Source: Enterococcus viikkiensis (GTDB lineage Bacteria > Bacillota > Bacilli > Lactobacillales > Enterococcaceae). Taken from it: a DNA stretch of 33,316 nucleotides. Positions 7,793-33,222 of this stretch are shown piece after piece. The DNA lies in NCBI RefSeq assembly GCF_005405345.1, contig NZ_BJDW01000026.1, positions 1 through 33,316 of the forward strand, read 5' to 3'. A program made the translations under genes and the position numbers. A model generated the notes under the pieces. It made no database searches and had not been told where the DNA came from. It was given only the letters and a program-made list of their open reading frames with translations. Numbering within the stretch: position 1 is the stretch's first letter; each line of letters starts with the position of its first letter.

Positions 7793-7828
7793 CAAAACCC
7801 CCGACCATCTTTTGGATGATCAGGGGTT
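7793..7828 (-). terminator. Intrinsic terminator after enolase
   Basis: AACCCCTGATCATC pairs over 14 positions (two G-U) with GATGGTCGGGGGTT on the minus strand and is followed by TTTTGTTTT. Confidence 0.9.
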
Positions 7829-7846
7829 CGGTCTAACTATCTTTTA

Positions 7847-9118
7847 TTATGCTTTGGGGAAGCGAGCTAGTTTGGCATAACCGGCTAATTCTTCTTCGAT
7901 ACGTAGGAATTGGTTGTATTTTTCAACCCGTTCACTGCGGGCCATCGAACCAGTCTTGATTTGTCCGGCATTCATTGCTACGGCAAAATCTGCGATGAAC
8001 GTATCGCCTGTTTCACCCGAACGGTGAGAGATCATAGTTGTATACCCATTGGCACGAGCCATTTTAATTGTCTCGATGGATTCAGAAACTGTACCGATTT
8101 GGTTTAATTTGATCAAGATTGAGTTAGCCACTTTTTTCTCGATACCTTCAGCGAAGATTGCTGGGTTTGTGACGAAAATATCATCGCCGACTAGTTGAAT
8201 TTCTTTGCCCATTGTCTCCGTCATTTTCTTAAATCCGTCCCAGTCATGTTCTGAGAAACCATCTTCAATTGTGATAATTGCTGGGTATTTTTTCACTAGC
8301 TCTTGATAATAGGTCAACATTTCGTCAGAAGACATTTCTTTGCCTTCAAAGCGATATTTCTTTGTTTCATCGCTATAAAATTCACTTGATGCGGGGTCTA
8401 ATGCGATGGCAATTTCTTCACCAGGTACGTAACCGGCTTCTTTGATGGCACGATAAAGCATTTCGATCGCCGCTTCGGTGCTAGCTAATTTAGGAGCAAA
8501 GCCACCTTCATCTCCAACCGCTGTTTCATACCCTTCTTTGCCAAGCACACCTTTTAACGTGTGGTAAATGTTGGCGATTTTTTCAACACCATCACGGAAG
8601 CTTTCACGTTTCACTGGTGTAATTAAGAATTCTTGCACGTCGATACCGGAATCGGCATGAACACCGCCGTTAATTACATTGAAGAATGGTTGTGGCAATT
8701 CAAGATCGACACCACCAAGATAACGATACAATGGCACACCTTGACTTTGTGCCGCAGCCCGAGCAACAGCCATAGAAACACCTAAGATCGCATTGGCGCC
8801 AAGACGACCTTTGTTTGGTGTACCGTCTAAGTCAATCATAACTTGATCGATTTTTGCTTGATCGAAAGGTACTAAACCGTTTAATGCCTCATTGATTTCA
8901 GTATTGACGTTTTCAACAGCTTTACGAACACCTTTACCCATCAAACGATCGCCGCCATCCCGTAATTCCACTGCTTCACGATCGCCTGTTGAGGCACCAC
9001 TTGGAACTTCTGCACGACCTAATGTGCCGTCGGATAAAATCACATCTGCTTCCACCGTAGGATTTCCACGAGAATCAAAAATTTCTCTTGCTTTTACTGT
9101 TTCAATTACTACTGTCAT
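7847..9118 (-). CDS. eno: Enolase, divergent (secondary) type
   Basis: The 423-residue glycolytic enzyme converts 2-phosphoglycerate to PEP. Active-site residues are all present: Glu163, Glu204 (VGDEGGFAP), metal ligands Asp241, Glu285 and Asp312, Lys337 (SILIKLNQ) and Lys388 (GQIKTG), plus SHRSGET. It is clearly different from the usual enterococcal enolase of about 432 aa as I remember it (for example [17 protein letters not shown] and the C-terminus LARFPKA), and it does not sit in a gap-pgk-tpi cluster. It therefore looks like a second enolase, of the kind seen in some lactobacilli. Its leader has a fluoride riboswitch. GAGGAGG precedes the ATG at 9118. Confidence 0.95.
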
Positions 9119-9144
9119 GTCTATTTCCTCCTCAATCTAAATAC

Positions 9145-9230
9145 AAAAAAGCCTGTTACAAGTTGAGTACTTCTAAATACACCTTATGCCTCTCAGCCAA
9201 AGTGTTAAAAGTATTGAACTTATAACAGGC
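9145..9230 (-). terminator. Riboswitch expression platform: intrinsic terminator in eno leader
   Basis: A long imperfect hairpin begins with GCCTGTTATAAGTT (minus, from 9230) and closes with AACTTGTAACAGGC (to 9151), followed by TTTTTT (9150-9145), only 27 nt before the enolase ATG. Its 5' arm begins inside the 3' end of the riboswitch aptamer, so ligand-bound aptamer and terminator should compete. Confidence 0.88.
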
Positions 9231-9279
9231 GCCATCAGCTGAATACATCAGCAGTCAGGAGGGAGCACCATCCCTCTTA
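9222..9279 (-). promoter_or_regulatory. Fluoride riboswitch (crcB motif) upstream of enolase
   Basis: On the minus strand the leader shows the crcB-motif order: GAGGGATGG, a loop with GTGC, the closing TCCCTC, then a small stem GCTGA/TCAGC, then GCTGATGGCGCC and TGTT. Three helices are visible: GAGGGA (9276-9271) with TCCCTC (9264-9259); GCTGA/TCAGC (9252-9238); and the pseudoknot GGTGC (9269-9265) with GCGCC (9232-9228). This matches the consensus I remember (GAUGG ... UC-CC ... GCUGAUG-C-CCU). Enolase genes are a known crcB-motif regulon member because fluoride inhibits enolase. Fluoride binding should stabilise the pseudoknot and block the terminator, switching eno on. Confidence 0.9.
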
Positions 9280-9286
9280 CATTTAA

Positions 9287-9315
9287 ACGATAGCACGATG
9301 TTTTTTCCCTGACAA
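9287..9315 (-). promoter_or_regulatory. Promoter of the fluoride-riboswitch eno transcript
   Basis: TTGTCA (9315-9310) and TATCGT (9292-9287) are exactly 17 bp apart on the minus strand. The start point would be near 9280, right at the 5' edge of the aptamer. Confidence 0.65.
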
Positions 9316-17634: not shown

Positions 17635-18768
17635 ATGAGAAAAGCACTGATTTTACCAACAAAATACGTTCAAGGTGAAGATGAGTTATTAAATTTAGGG
17701 TATTTCGTTACCACCTTTGGCAAGTCCGCTTTATTGATTGCTAATCCAGATGACGTTGAGCGAGTACGTCCACAATTGGATGCGACTGCAAAGAAATTCG
17801 ATATCACGTTTTATGAAGGCGGATTCAACGGAGAAGTTACCCGTGAAGAAACAAAACGATTGCAAGCAGTAGCAGAAAAATATCAAACTGACTGCATTAT
17901 CGGACTCGGCGGCGGAAAAGCCATTGATGCATCAAAAGTGGTTGCTGAAGGTGAACACTTGATTATTGTTCCAACAATTGCTGCGCAAGATGCACCAACC
18001 TCTCACTCTGCTGTACTTTATCACGCAGATGGTTCTTTTGATGACTATGCTTATTTCAAACAAAGTCCTAGCGTTGTTTTAGTTGACACAAAGGTCGTTG
18101 CAAAAGCACCCACTCGCTTCTTAGTTGCCGGCATGGGCGATGCTTTATCCACGTACTTTGAAGCTCGTGCCACTCACAATTCTTACTCACGGGTCAATGC
18201 TAGTTTACCAATGGGGTCTCGTGAAGGATTGACTCCCCCAGCCAGTGGAACCTACGCTGCACTTGCTATGGCAAAATTATGTTGGGAAAATCTACAAGAA
18301 GATGGGCTACACGCAAAGATTGCTTGTGATGCAAACTTACCAACTGAAGCATTAAATAAGATCGTTGAAACAAATATCTTATTATCTGGTTTAGGCTTTG
18401 AAAGTGGCGGCTTAGCAGCAGCTCACGCGATCCACAATGGAATGACCGTTCTAGCCGGTACACACCACTATCTACATGGTGAAAAAGTTGCCTTCGCTAC
18501 TTTAGCACAATTGGTTTTAGAAGATGCTGAAACAGAAGAAATCAACGCAGTGATGGCTTTCATGGCTTCAATCGGATTGCCGCTTACATTGGCTGACCTT
18601 GGGGTTGAATCAATCAGCTTTGAAGAAGCACTGGAAGTTGCCAAAATTGCTTCTATTCCAGAAGAATCCATTCACTCAATGCCATTCCCAATCGTAGAAG
18701 AAGAAGTTGCCAATGCTATTATCGTCGCCGACCGCATCGGTCAAGCTTACAAAGACGCACATCAATAG
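17635..18768 (+). CDS. gldA: Glycerol dehydrogenase, NAD-dependent
   Basis: The 377-residue iron/zinc-type alcohol dehydrogenase oxidises glycerol to dihydroxyacetone with NAD+. The glycine-rich NAD motif GLGGGKAIDASK is at 90-101. The metal ligands are Asp169 (VAGMGDALSTYFEAR), His264 (AAAHAIHNG) and His281 (HYLHGEKVA), the arrangement of Bacillus GlyDH. AAGGAGG lies upstream of the ATG. It leads the dhaMKL genes in the classical enterococcal order gldA-dhaM-dhaK-dhaL, so dihydroxyacetone is passed on to phosphorylation. Expression is probably under the divergent PocR-AraC regulator and CcpA. Confidence 0.96.
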   Translation: MRKALILPTKYVQGEDELLNLGYFVTTFGKSALLIANPDDVERVRPQLDATAKKFDITFYEGGFNGEVTREETKRLQAVAEKYQTDCIIGLGGGKAIDASKVVAEGEHLIIVPTIAAQDAPTSHSAVLYHADGSFDDYAYFKQSPSVVLVDTKVVAKAPTRFLVAGMGDALSTYFEARATHNSYSRVNASLPMGSREGLTPPASGTYAALAMAKLCWENLQEDGLHAKIACDANLPTEALNKIVETNILLSGLGFESGGLAAAHAIHNGMTVLAGTHHYLHGEKVAFATLAQLVLEDAETEEINAVMAFMASIGLPLTLADLGVESISFEEALEVAKIASIPEESIHSMPFPIVEEEVANAIIVADRIGQAYKDAHQ

Positions 18769-18776
18769 TCAACAGC

Positions 18777-18827
18777 CGTGTTACTAGCTTGCCTCAGCGA
18801 GTTAGTAACACGTTATGTGTCATAACG
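18777..18827 (+). repeat. Tandem hairpins after gldA
   Basis: CGTGTTACTA (18777-18786) pairs with TAGTAACACG (18803-18812); directly after, CGTTATG/CATAACG (18811-18827) forms a second hairpin sharing bases with the first. There is no clear U tract, so this may be a partial terminator or an RNA-stability element separating gldA from dhaMKL. Confidence 0.5.
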
Positions 18828-18894
18828 ATCTTCCTATTTATCGAAAAAGGATGTCCATAAACACCCCCTCTACTCCAGTAGAATGCTACACGGC

Positions 18895-18923
18895 TTGAAA
18901 ATAAGTACATTAAATTTTAAATT
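18895..18923 (+). promoter_or_regulatory. Possible internal promoter of dhaMKL
   Basis: TTGAAA (18895-18900) and TAAATT (18918-18923) have a 17-bp spacing; however, the start site would be very close to the SD before the dhaM ATG at 18942, giving almost no leader. Confidence 0.3.
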
Positions 18924-18941
18924 GAAAAAAGGAGTATTTAC

Positions 18942-19340
18942 ATGAAAAAGGCAATTCTGTTAGTCTCACATAGTCAAAAAATCACTGACGGTATCAAAGA
19001 AATGATCGAGCAAATGGCTCAAAGTGATTCACTGGAAATTTATTCATTAGGCGGCACTTCAGATGGTGAGCTTGGCAGTGATCCAACGAAGATCGTTGAT
19101 GTTGTCAACGAAGCCGATTCCGTTGAAGCATTTCTCGTTTTTGCCGATCTCGGCAGTGCTGTTTTAAGTGCAGAATTAGCCTTTGACATGTTAGAAGAAA
19201 CACAACAGTCCAAATATATTTTAGTTGATGCACCTCTAGTTGAGGGAGCTTTCGCAGCGGGAATCACTGCTAGTGTTTCCGATGATCTTCCGCACATTAT
19301 CGCTGAAGCAAAAAATGCACCCGGAAAGGGATGGGAATAA
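18942..19340 (+). CDS. dhaM: PTS-dependent dihydroxyacetone kinase, phosphotransfer subunit DhaM
   Basis: The 132-residue protein is a single EIIA-mannose-like domain. His10 in LLVSHSQKI is the phosphorylation site that takes phosphate from HPr and passes it to the ADP on DhaL. It lacks the HPr and EI-like extensions of the E. coli DhaM, as is usual in firmicutes. AAAGGAG stands about 8 nt before the ATG. It ends one base before the dhaK start, within a tightly packed dhaMKL operon. Confidence 0.93.
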   Translation: MKKAILLVSHSQKITDGIKEMIEQMAQSDSLEIYSLGGTSDGELGSDPTKIVDVVNEADSVEAFLVFADLGSAVLSAELAFDMLEETQQSKYILVDAPLVEGAFAAGITASVSDDLPHIIAEAKNAPGKGWE

Positions 19341-19341
19341 C

Positions 19342-20325
19342 ATGAAAAAAATAATCAATGAACCAAAAGATATTATTGAAGAAATGTTGTCTGGTATCGT
19401 CGCAAGCTATCCTACGCTCGTTCATCGAGTAGCTGATTCTCGCGTTATCGCAAGGAATTCTAGCTTAACACAAGTGGGATTAGTTTCTGGTGGCGGCAGC
19501 GGACATGAACCAGCCCATGCAGGTTTTGTCGGCGACGGCATGTTGAGCGCAGCGGTTTTAGGGGATGTTTTTACTTCTCCAACCCCCGATCAAATTGAAA
19601 TAGCGATTGAAGAAGCAGATCAAGGGCAAGGCGTTCTATTGATTGTCAAAAATTACACGGGCGATATTTTAAACTTTGAAATGGCCAAGGATTTGGCAGA
19701 AATGAATGAGATTGCTACAGAGATCGTTGTCGTTGACGATGATATCGCGGTAGAAGATAGCACCTATACTGCCGGTAAACGCGGCGTGGCTGGGACGATC
19801 CTCGTTCATAAGATCTTAGGAAATGCCGCTAAACACGGTGCCAGTCTGACTGAATTAAAAGCTTTAGGTGATCGGGTCGTGGCAGCAACGAAGACAATCG
19901 GGGTTGCTTTAAAAGCTGCAACAGTTCCTGAAGTTGGTAAGCCCGGCTTTTCATTAGCCGAAGATGAAATTGAATTTGGTGTAGGTATTCATGGTGAACC
20001 TGGCTATCGTAAAGAGCACTTGCAGCCATCTAAAGCTTTAGCCCAAGAAATGGTGACTAAACTATTGGCTTCCTATGAAGAAAAACCCCAAACGATCGGC
20101 GTCTTAGTCAATGGCATGGGCGGTACACCTTTGATGGAGCAATTTGTCTTTATCAATGATGTCCTACATCTATTAGCAGAAGAAAATATTTCTGTCAGCT
20201 TCCATAAGGTCGGAAATTATATGACCTCTATTGACATGCAAGGCTTGTCTTTAACATTTATTGACTTAGCCGATCAAACTTGGCAGCACGCTTTGACTCA
20301 CCATGTTTCAACTATCTCTTGGTAA
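19342..20325 (+). CDS. dhaK: Dihydroxyacetone kinase, substrate-binding subunit DhaK
   Basis: The 327-residue subunit holds dihydroxyacetone covalently as a hemiaminal on His217 (GVGIHGEPG), with His55 in GGGSGHEPAH assisting. The presence of this His distinguishes it from the DhaQ regulator paralogues. An open frame extends upstream to 19240 inside dhaM, but the ATG at 19342 has AAAGGGATGGG before it, starts with the family N-terminus MKKIIN, and lies one base after the dhaM stop. Confidence 0.96.
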   Translation: MKKIINEPKDIIEEMLSGIVASYPTLVHRVADSRVIARNSSLTQVGLVSGGGSGHEPAHAGFVGDGMLSAAVLGDVFTSPTPDQIEIAIEEADQGQGVLLIVKNYTGDILNFEMAKDLAEMNEIATEIVVVDDDIAVEDSTYTAGKRGVAGTILVHKILGNAAKHGASLTELKALGDRVVAATKTIGVALKAATVPEVGKPGFSLAEDEIEFGVGIHGEPGYRKEHLQPSKALAQEMVTKLLASYEEKPQTIGVLVNGMGGTPLMEQFVFINDVLHLLAEENISVSFHKVGNYMTSIDMQGLSLTFIDLADQTWQHALTHHVSTISW

Positions 20326-20348
20326 TAGATCCTAAGGAGGAAAAATAA

Positions 20349-20948
20349 ATGAAGGTAACAACAAATGATATCCAAGCGTGGTTGCAGGATTTTGCAGCTG
20401 CGATTGAAAAAAATAAAGATTATCTAAGTGAATTGGATACGCCGATTGGTGACGGCGATCATGGCAACAATATGCATCGGGGAATGACCGAGTATTTAGT
20501 TGTTTCTAAAGGAAATGAGCCCAACTCTATCGCTAATAGCTTTAAAGTCTTAGCGATGGCGCTGATCTCAAAAGTTGGCGGTGCATCCGGTCCTTTGTAT
20601 GGCTCCGCTTTTATGAATATGTCGAAAGCCGCTAAAGATCTTCCTGAAATTACTACTACTGAACAATTAATTACGATACTAACTGCTGGCTTCGATGGCA
20701 TCAAAAATCGGGGAAAAGCAGAACTAGGCGACAAAACAATGTTAGACGTCTGGGGCCCTAGCCTTACTCTTTTAAAAGAAGATCGCTTCTCCAGCCAAGA
20801 AATTGAGCAACTGAAAGAACAAACCAAAGACTTACAAGCTAAAAAAGGGCGCGCCTCTTATTTAGGCGAGCGCTCCATCGGACACATTGATCCAGGGGCA
20901 GCTTCTAGTGCCTTGTTATTCCAGACGCTACTGCCTTATCTAAATTAA
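20349..20948 (+). CDS. dhaL: Dihydroxyacetone kinase, ADP-binding subunit DhaL
   Basis: The 199-residue subunit binds the Mg-ADP/ATP cofactor that shuttles phosphate from DhaM to dihydroxyacetone on DhaK. The metal-binding aspartates are in DTPIGDGDHGNNM (Asp30, Asp35, Asp37). GGSGPLYGSAF-like (GGASGPLYGSAFMNM) and SYLGERSIGHIDPGA near the C-terminus are family blocks. AAGGAGG is 9 nt ahead of the ATG. It ends the operon, followed by a strong terminator. Confidence 0.96.
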   Translation: MKVTTNDIQAWLQDFAAAIEKNKDYLSELDTPIGDGDHGNNMHRGMTEYLVVSKGNEPNSIANSFKVLAMALISKVGGASGPLYGSAFMNMSKAAKDLPEITTTEQLITILTAGFDGIKNRGKAELGDKTMLDVWGPSLTLLKEDRFSSQEIEQLKEQTKDLQAKKGRASYLGERSIGHIDPGAASSALLFQTLLPYLN

Positions 20949-32167: not shown

Positions 32168-33222
32168 TTATGCTTCTAAATGTTTTCTACCACGAGTAAA
32201 GTATACCACTGCGATAATAAGTGCAATCACCCCGACTGCGATGAACGCGTAGATCCCTTTACCACCGGTAGAAGGAAGGGTTCCTTTAGACTTATTATTA
32301 ACTTGTAACTCAGTTTTACCATTATCTGCGTTAAAACTTATTGGTTTTCTAGCTAAAACATATCCTGTTGGTGCCTTTGTTTCGATTAATTCATATGAAA
32401 TATCTTCCTTATCACTATCAGATTTTGTTTTGGCTAAACCAGACACACTAAAATGACCATTTTCATCTGAAGATATTTTTGTAGCATTTTTTCTTCTTTT
32501 ATCCATGTGATTTTACTTGAAGCCAATGTGTTATGAGATCCATTGCCGATATTGGCAAATTGGGCAAATTCTTTTTCATCATTTACCGTTTTTCTTGCAA
32601 TAACAAATTCTGCACCTTGAAGCGGCTTACCAGAATCTAAATCTTTCTTGATAAATGAATGCCCATAAGTCTTAACAGTATCTTGATTATGTTTAGGCTT
32701 AAAGTTATTGTTAAAATTTATCTTATTGGCAATACCAGTATCTAAAGCAGTTCCTGGCTTCAATCTCATATCGACCGTAAAAGTGACATCTTTATTAATG
32801 TAAGGAGTCAATTGCTTAGGATTGTTAAACTTCACAGTAAATTTAGTTTCGCTATTTTTCACAGTTGTTGTCTCAACATTTTTTTGGGCATTACCATTAA
32901 TATTAACCGTAGCATTTATATCATCCATAGAAGATATAAGTTCTAACTTAGAATCATACTCATCTTCTAATTCAAATTTGGTATATTGTGCTACATCATT
33001 AGGAATATTTAGTTTAATAGTAAAAGTTACTTTTTGTCCAATTTCTAGATCGTGATCATCAGCATTTTTAGTTGGTTCCGGCACTATGTAATTATAAGCA
33101 TTAGCACCCGTTTCGTTACTTCCTGTATAAACATATGTTACATCGCCTTGTTCATTATACATCGGTGTCGCTGTGACTGTTTGATCGTTCTCTATTTGAT
33201 CAGTATCTTTTTGAACACTCAT
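32168..33222 (-). pseudogene. LPXTG pilin (SpaA-type) gene, frameshifted and 5'-truncated
   Basis: The first frame (33222 to about 32490) encodes a pilin N-terminal domain (TYVYTGSNETGANAYNY, VAQYTKFELEDEYDSKLEL), then a SpaA-like domain start (FIKKDLDSGKPLQGAEFVI). It then derails. The second frame continues the same domain (ATKISSDENGHFSVSGLA, YELIETKAPTGYVLA) and the cell-wall sorting signal LPSTG, a TM and RGRKHLEA. Adding one A in the run at 32487-32492 restores one frame of exactly 352 codons. No signal peptide precedes the N-terminal domain, and the in-frame upstream region has a TAA at 33256-33258, so the 5' end seems lost. It is the substrate gene for the sortase downstream. Confidence 0.85.

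Follow-up and report, generated by a model that had tools for sequence, protein, structure and literature searches.

The eno2 locus

The window, a 33,316-nt stretch of contig C26 of Enterococcus viikkiensis, carries on its minus strand a second-type enolase gene, here called eno2, behind a leader with a fluoride riboswitch aptamer and an overlapping intrinsic terminator (Table 1). The gene starts with an ATG at 9118, and its product was assigned to the enolases by its TIGR01060 score (630.5 bits, cut-off 300) and its catalytic residues. A scan of the whole window against Rfam at gathering thresholds yielded a single match, to RF01734 (E value 9e-07), which was also the only RF01734 match in the whole genome. 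The earlier note had recognized a crcB-motif aptamer with a GGTGC/GCGCC pseudoknot here, and both the family and the two pseudoknot strands were confirmed. The score exceeds the cut-off by 2.6 bits; with R1, a covariance model built from 37 eno2-leader aptamers, the aptamer scored 66.8 bits, the window sequence being part of the training set. The aptamer lies 66 to 166 nt 5' of the enolase. The covariance score, the pseudoknot, the position in the leader of a fluoride-response gene and the overlapping terminator all place the aptamer in RF01734, and because it belongs to this family, its ligand is presumably fluoride.

Table 1. Features of eno2, its leader and its flanks in the window
Feature	Position	Strand	Basis
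Putative -35 hexamer TTGTCA	9310..9315	-	not above chance alone; same hexamer in relatives
Putative -10 hexamer TATCGT, TG ahead	9287..9292	-	promoter scan and relatives
Fluoride riboswitch aptamer (RF01734)	9219..9284	-	36.6 bits against a gathering cut-off of 34
Pseudoknot 5' strand GGTGC	9265..9269	-	covariation and coordinates
Pseudoknot 3' strand GCGCC, last three bases doubling as the start of the terminator stem	9228..9232	-	covariation and coordinates
Terminator outer stem, 5' arm	9217..9230	-	fold, covariation and coordinates
Terminator outer stem, 3' arm	9151..9164	-	fold, covariation and coordinates
Terminator T-tract	9145..9150	-	coordinates
Shine-Dalgarno GGAGG, 8 nt before the ATG	9127..9131	-	coordinates
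eno2, 423-aa enolase from a clade apart from the glycolytic-operon type	7847..9118	-	TIGR01060, trees
Terminator-like hairpin after eno2	7795..7829	-	2 found, 1.5 expected in the region
Terminator-like hairpin after the gene upstream of eno2	9389-9362	-	same scan

The promoter is the weakest element of the leader. Promoter-like sites in the region were not above chance (2 found against 3.6 expected), and the candidate TTGTCA-17-TATCGT (9315-9287) gains weight only because similar hexamers precede the eno2 copies of E. devriesei and E. malodoratus. The order promoter, aptamer, terminator, Shine-Dalgarno sequence and eno, as read earlier, thus held from the aptamer onward, with the promoter remaining a candidate backed by two relatives; the span of 9145-9315 assigned to the leader is the exact extent from the -35 hexamer to the T-tract. 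Since terminator-like hairpins flank eno2, we took the gene to be monocistronic.

No fluoride exporter is adjacent, in agreement with the earlier note. CrcB was found only on contig C14 and CLC proteins only on C2, C9 and C19, with none on C26. The crcB pair on C14 (16983-17680) has no aptamer, and none of the three CLC genes of this genome belongs to the 219-233-bit class that is switched in relatives. Elsewhere in the window, a dihydroxyacetone kinase set (Fe-ADH, EIIA, Dak1 and Dak2; 17635-20948) lies beside a PocR/AraC-type regulator. At 32168-33222, two overlapping minus-strand frames adjoin a sortase gene; one has a SpaA-like fold with an LPXTG anchor, the other is 262 aa long and has no Pfam match, and together they may be a single surface-protein gene interrupted by a frame break.

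Pairing in the leader and the proposed switch

Covariation was evaluated on 37 aptamers from eno2 leaders, which gave 36 distinct rows. The pseudoknot pairs were standard in 180 of 180 cells and showed 24 double changes (GC to AU and UA to CG), neither value being matched by any of 500 shuffles, and with the partner strand shifted the pairing did not exceed 73%. Of the five pairs, two are invariant and one changes on a single side. The terminator has a 14-bp outer stem in an 80-nt hairpin. Across seven close relatives, 98.0% of the 98 outer-stem cells are paired and 4 are double changes, and 0 of 500 shuffles paired as well. The predicted folding energy of the leader is -55.4 kcal/mol (z -4.2), and 1 of 200 shuffles folded equally well. 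The terminator shares with the aptamer three pseudoknot bases (9230-9228) and the next U (9227), so the overlap with the 3' end of the aptamer that had been noted before is borne out, in a stem that covaries among relatives.

An overlapping hairpin with a T-rich tail was found by script in 41 of 43 eno2 leaders, the 43 being those of 39 named loci, three further genomes and the window; the script required a 5' arm starting in the 3' end of the aptamer and a T-rich tail after the hairpin. At L092 the script found no overlapping terminator, and an overlapping stem is visible by eye in the leader. The 83-nt leader of L069 has an aptamer and no terminator. At this locus (L069 2915-2998, Vagococcus vulneris) a Shine-Dalgarno sequence lies near the aptamer, and control is possibly translational.

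The arrangement suggests the following switch. Without fluoride, the nascent leader would fold into the long hairpin, with its 14-bp outer stem, at the T-tract, and transcription would halt before eno2. Fluoride binding would lock the pseudoknot GGUGC/GCGCC and withhold the three G-C bases at the foot of the terminator stem. The next U (9227) would probably be withheld as well. This base is invariant in the alignment and lies eight bases past an invariant A, and by this A-to-U spacing it may be the equivalent of U48 in the Bacillus cereus aptamer, whose A40-U48 linchpin locks the fluoride-bound state (PMC8752731, accessible portion). When both pseudoknot strands were held free in folding, 11 bp of the outer stem still formed (10 when the U was withheld too), and the remaining stem base sat away from the T-tract. 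Read-through would be expected because the stem base then no longer adjoins the T-tract; the polymerase would continue into eno2, and the enzyme made would be a separate enolase isozyme, added to the glycolytic enolase that fluoride inhibits. An ON-type transcriptional fluoride riboswitch controlling a second, distinct enolase is our main reading of the locus, with a probability of roughly 85%; the ON direction and the benefit to the cell are its presumptive parts.

That the leader has decayed in the window strain, leaving an aptamer that has lost its switching function and an eno2 gene either silent or constitutively expressed, is highly improbable. The aptamer score is close to the cut-off, and the frames of two other eno2 copies (G006 and L081) appear broken. 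The window aptamer nevertheless retains the columns that are invariant in the alignment, both pseudoknot strands pair, the pairing of the terminator is kept among close relatives, and the window's eno2 reading frame is unbroken.

Weinberg et al. 2010 described the crcB motif as often overlapped by terminators and predicted that the ligand raises expression (PMC2864571, as far as its text was available). The B. cereus crcB riboswitch belongs to the same aptamer family and has a terminator that fluoride disrupts, and its pseudoknot and, if 9227 is the equivalent base, its A-U linchpin spacing appear conserved in the window (PMC8752731, same portion). The window differs in its enolase output and in the long 80-nt hairpin that overlaps three pseudoknot bases and one U.

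A separate enolase clade and its switch

Among 20 genomes of the genus, 19 have an operon-type enolase (455-462 bits to PF00113) and 8, including that of the window, have the second type (371-385 bits to PF00113). RF01734 matches lie upstream of all eight second-type genes, and thus the same leader is present in other enterococci, where a survey had been suggested. The genus search gave 13 matches in 12 genomes; the other five precede CLC genes (G003, G007, G008, G021 and G022), and none of the 13 precedes an operon-type eno. These CLC leaders resemble the eno2 leaders in aptamer family and overlapping terminators. They differ in their output, a CLC protein that is probably of the fluoride type, as judged from the switch, and in the 5' arm of the terminator, which in the predicted folds extends further into the aptamer.

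In a tree of 110 enolases (44 eno2, 29 operon-type Lactobacillales and 37 loci from other bacteria), all 44 eno2 rows formed one clade with an SH-aLRT support of 100; E. larvae, one of the 37 other loci, grouped with the operon type. The clade was recovered with a support of 100 in a second tree, which added 16 eno2-type rows, kept 10 of the 37 others and left out the remaining 27 and 14 of the 30 loci L207-L236. It was recovered again, with 100/100 including bootstrap, in a third tree of 59 rows that omitted most of these other loci and most of L207-L236. L081 (broken frame) was left out of the trees, and L177 (truncated frame) was left out of the operon-type rows. The window enolase fell outside the operon-type group in all three trees. 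Operon-type enolases of Lactobacillales (gapA-pgk-tpiA-eno) share with eno2 the enzyme family and catalytic residues, whereas they form a separate clade, show 56% identity (E. devriesei operon-type enolase against window eno2) and lack a fluoride aptamer in 51 loci. The earlier note had left it at more, or a different, enolase. Because eno2 branches apart from the enolases of the glycolytic operon, what the cell makes is most likely a different enolase and not merely more of the same.

The switch follows this clade. The named eno2 loci, L055-L097, were the 43 nearest among the best 80 loci. RF01734 scored above the cut-off directly upstream of 35 of them, and four more had in-place matches below it (32.0, 31.1, 24.5 and 24.3 bits). 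R1 found matches in place at L076, L078 and L091, none of which had been used to build it. By the Rfam, sub-cut-off and R1 matches together, an aptamer precedes 40 of the 43 genes, the three without being the Ligilactobacillus loci L071-L073. No R1 match was found at 51 operon-type loci, several of them from the same genomes as eno2 loci, and the 37 other enolase loci had no fluoride aptamer at Rfam cut-offs. In the order, 37 of 395 Lactobacillales genomes hold at least 40 eno2-type matches (62% identity or more), and among the best 30 of 40 such loci (L207-L236), R1 detected an aptamer upstream of 23 and none at 7. RF01734 itself was found in 155 of the 395 genomes with stricter filters that lose weak matches; the 35-bit match at L234, for example, is absent from that survey. 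The fluoride switch is a marker of this distinct enolase family, which occurs in many lactic-acid bacteria.

The pairing of riboswitch and enolase is already known, as the earlier note had stated; what the survey adds is the setting of the eno2 clade in Lactobacillales. Enolase is among the reported targets in the text available of PMC5533749, PMC11139923 and PMC8752731, the last of which names it among genes under fluoride riboswitch control. The accessible part of PMC9495176 lists fluoride riboswitches in E. faecalis and E. faecium and does not mention enolase there. Among the open-access papers retrieved, judged by titles and the beginnings of abstracts, none describes a Lactobacillales eno2 clade.

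Some eno2 copies show signs of mobility or loss. The genes and leaders of L087, L088 and L089, on contigs of 4-7 kb, come from Pediococcus damnosus, Levilactobacillus paucivorans and Secundilactobacillus paracollinoides; they were likely transferred recently, since they are nearly identical across these hosts. The frames in G006 (L017/L041) and L081 seem broken, as expected of a dispensable gene, with sequencing error as another possible cause.

Spare or sole enzyme, fluoride islands and possible roles of eno2

Most switched genes are second copies, with 37 of the 39 genomes holding a switched named eno2 also containing an operon-type enolase (above 429 bits). The exceptions are S. paracollinoides (G432), with the operon-type gene in two pieces and two switched eno2 copies, and L. 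iwatensis (G444), with a second, unswitched eno2-type gene (L205). Conversely, eno2 is the only enolase match and has no switch in the genomes of L071-L073, and the genomes of L230-L233 have one enolase match each, an unswitched eno2. In a table of 59 rows, which excludes the window, was labeled by hand and contains identical proteins across the named and unnamed sets (4 sets of identical rows), 45 eno2 genes were switched in genomes with an operon-type enolase, 9 were unswitched without one, 3 switched without one and 2 unswitched with one. Nine of 11 unswitched eno2 genes are thus in genomes without an operon-type enolase. One of the two unswitched genes from genomes with an operon-type enolase, L225, has zero tree distance to a plasmid eno2 of Listeria innocua. 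Reduced to four independent pairs, a mean of 2.7 agreed with loss of the switch in sole enolases, 0 disagreed and 1.3 showed no difference (sign test p 0.25). The distribution is suggestive, and only suggestive, of a spare eno2 having been adopted as the housekeeping enzyme, with loss of the switch, at least twice.

The assembly of the window strain (G000; 45 contigs, listed as 99.99% complete) gave no match for an operon-type eno, PGK (pgk) or TIM (tpiA). The 16-kb glycolytic region of E. devriesei had no close match in it, the hits being a 69% stretch over gapA, eno2 at 64% and two stretches of less than 200 bases. Because pgk and tpiA are missing too, the lack of an operon-type eno is most likely an assembly gap over the glycolytic block. 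We considered eno2 as the sole enolase of the strain, which would put glycolysis under fluoride control, and rejected this on the same grounds.

Other fluoride loci show enolases in similar company. Extra fluoride aptamers near some eno2 loci precede genes for CLC (L060), CrcB (L224), a universal stress protein (L064) and a metallophosphoesterase (L082). At L082 (1203-1772, minus strand), a 189-aa protein without a Pfam match at 1e-5 also lies behind a fluoride aptamer, and the same protein start is seen in L227. A Lactococcus petauri plasmid carries eno2 with the switch (37 bits). On the L. innocua plasmid (L244 1775-4281), eno2 lacks its first residues, an IS3 transposase abuts its 5' side, and no fluoride aptamer was found at the locus; downstream, a Na+ riboswitch match (40.9 bits, cut-off 40.5) precedes a cation:proton antiporter gene.

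Two fluoride aptamers, at 47.8 and 43.1 bits, were found on a Klebsiella plasmid; the gene row DHHA2-usp-eno-phosphoglycerate mutase-crcB follows one of them and a CLC-type gene the other. The plasmid enolase shares 54% identity with the E. coli K-12 enzyme and likewise 54% with the window enzyme, and it grouped with the enolase of an Acidithiobacillus plasmid in the third tree. In Enterobacter cloacae FRM, eno lies in the riboswitch operon ppaC-uspA-eno-gpmA-crcB and is induced 176-fold by fluoride (PMC5533749, from the text available). Like the window, this operon and the Klebsiella plasmid have a switched enolase atypical of the host group; the FRM operon comprises six genes including the exporter, whereas the window has a single gene and no exporter. 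The sampled enterobacterial island enolases have another origin than eno2, near the Acidithiobacillus plasmid enolase. One origin for all fluoride-island enolases was accordingly not supported, since three Enterobacteriaceae plasmid enolases grouped there. In Rhodococcus sp. YL-1, the eno on plasmid pYLL2 (L250 1683-4766) has two CrcB genes and a universal stress gene as neighbors, and this is likely another fluoride island with its own enolase; that enolase sits on a very long branch and was not placed in the third tree.

Fluoride inhibits enolase, blocking glycolysis at this step. The residues that we take to be catalytic are invariant in all 44 eno2 proteins. The G before the DD pair and the T after the last catalytic K vary within eno2 and are fixed or nearly fixed in 66 other enolases; the window protein keeps the usual letters at both. 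Differences fixed within the clade include E179 and N183 (R184 and E188 in E. coli numbering) as well as V344, T361 and M362. A fluoride signature shared between islands was also considered. The Klebsiella island enolase carried 9 of 38 eno2-diagnostic residues against 1 in E. coli and looked convergent; the idea was rejected when held-out ordinary enolases reached up to 10 of 37, with Klebsiella at 8 of 37.

These data can be read as an effect of dosage only, with eno2 as sensitive to fluoride as the glycolytic enolase, fluoride just triggering more enzyme, and the distinct gene an accident of horizontal transfer. We give this an even chance. The unchanged catalytic residues (44 of 44), the occurrence of eno2 on plasmids and the lack in the Klebsiella enolase of a signature beyond that of ordinary enolases fit it. 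A switched copy of the host's own enolase would suffice for dosage, however, yet none of the 51 operon-type loci is switched; the Klebsiella island enolase that was sampled likewise has only 54% identity to its E. coli counterpart, and many residues are clade-fixed in eno2. It is quite possible, with the chances a little against it, that eno2 is instead kept because it works better under fluoride, through lower fluoride affinity or by not forming mixed oligomers. An old clade of its own, almost always linked to the switch, points this way, as do the clade-fixed residues near the catalytic motifs and two sampled fluoride-island lineages whose enolases are unlike the typical one of their relatives. 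Against it stand the same catalytic residues and the several eno2 genes that are their genome's only enolase and have no switch, so that ordinary work is possible for this enzyme.

In summary, an ON-type fluoride riboswitch probably controls eno2, a distinct enolase. Its broadest interpretation, tentative and on present sequence comparisons rather unlikely to hold in full, would be a dedicated fluoride-stress enolase of the Lactobacillales that is old, partly plasmid-borne, more resistant to fluoride or able to avoid mixed oligomers, controlled by the switch and switch-free where it is the sole enolase. A clade that is nearly always fluoride-switched offers a testable case in which fluoride would be answered by a different enzyme, beyond export or more enolase, and eno2 and operon-type enzymes provide natural pairs with which to study the determinants of fluoride sensitivity in enolase.
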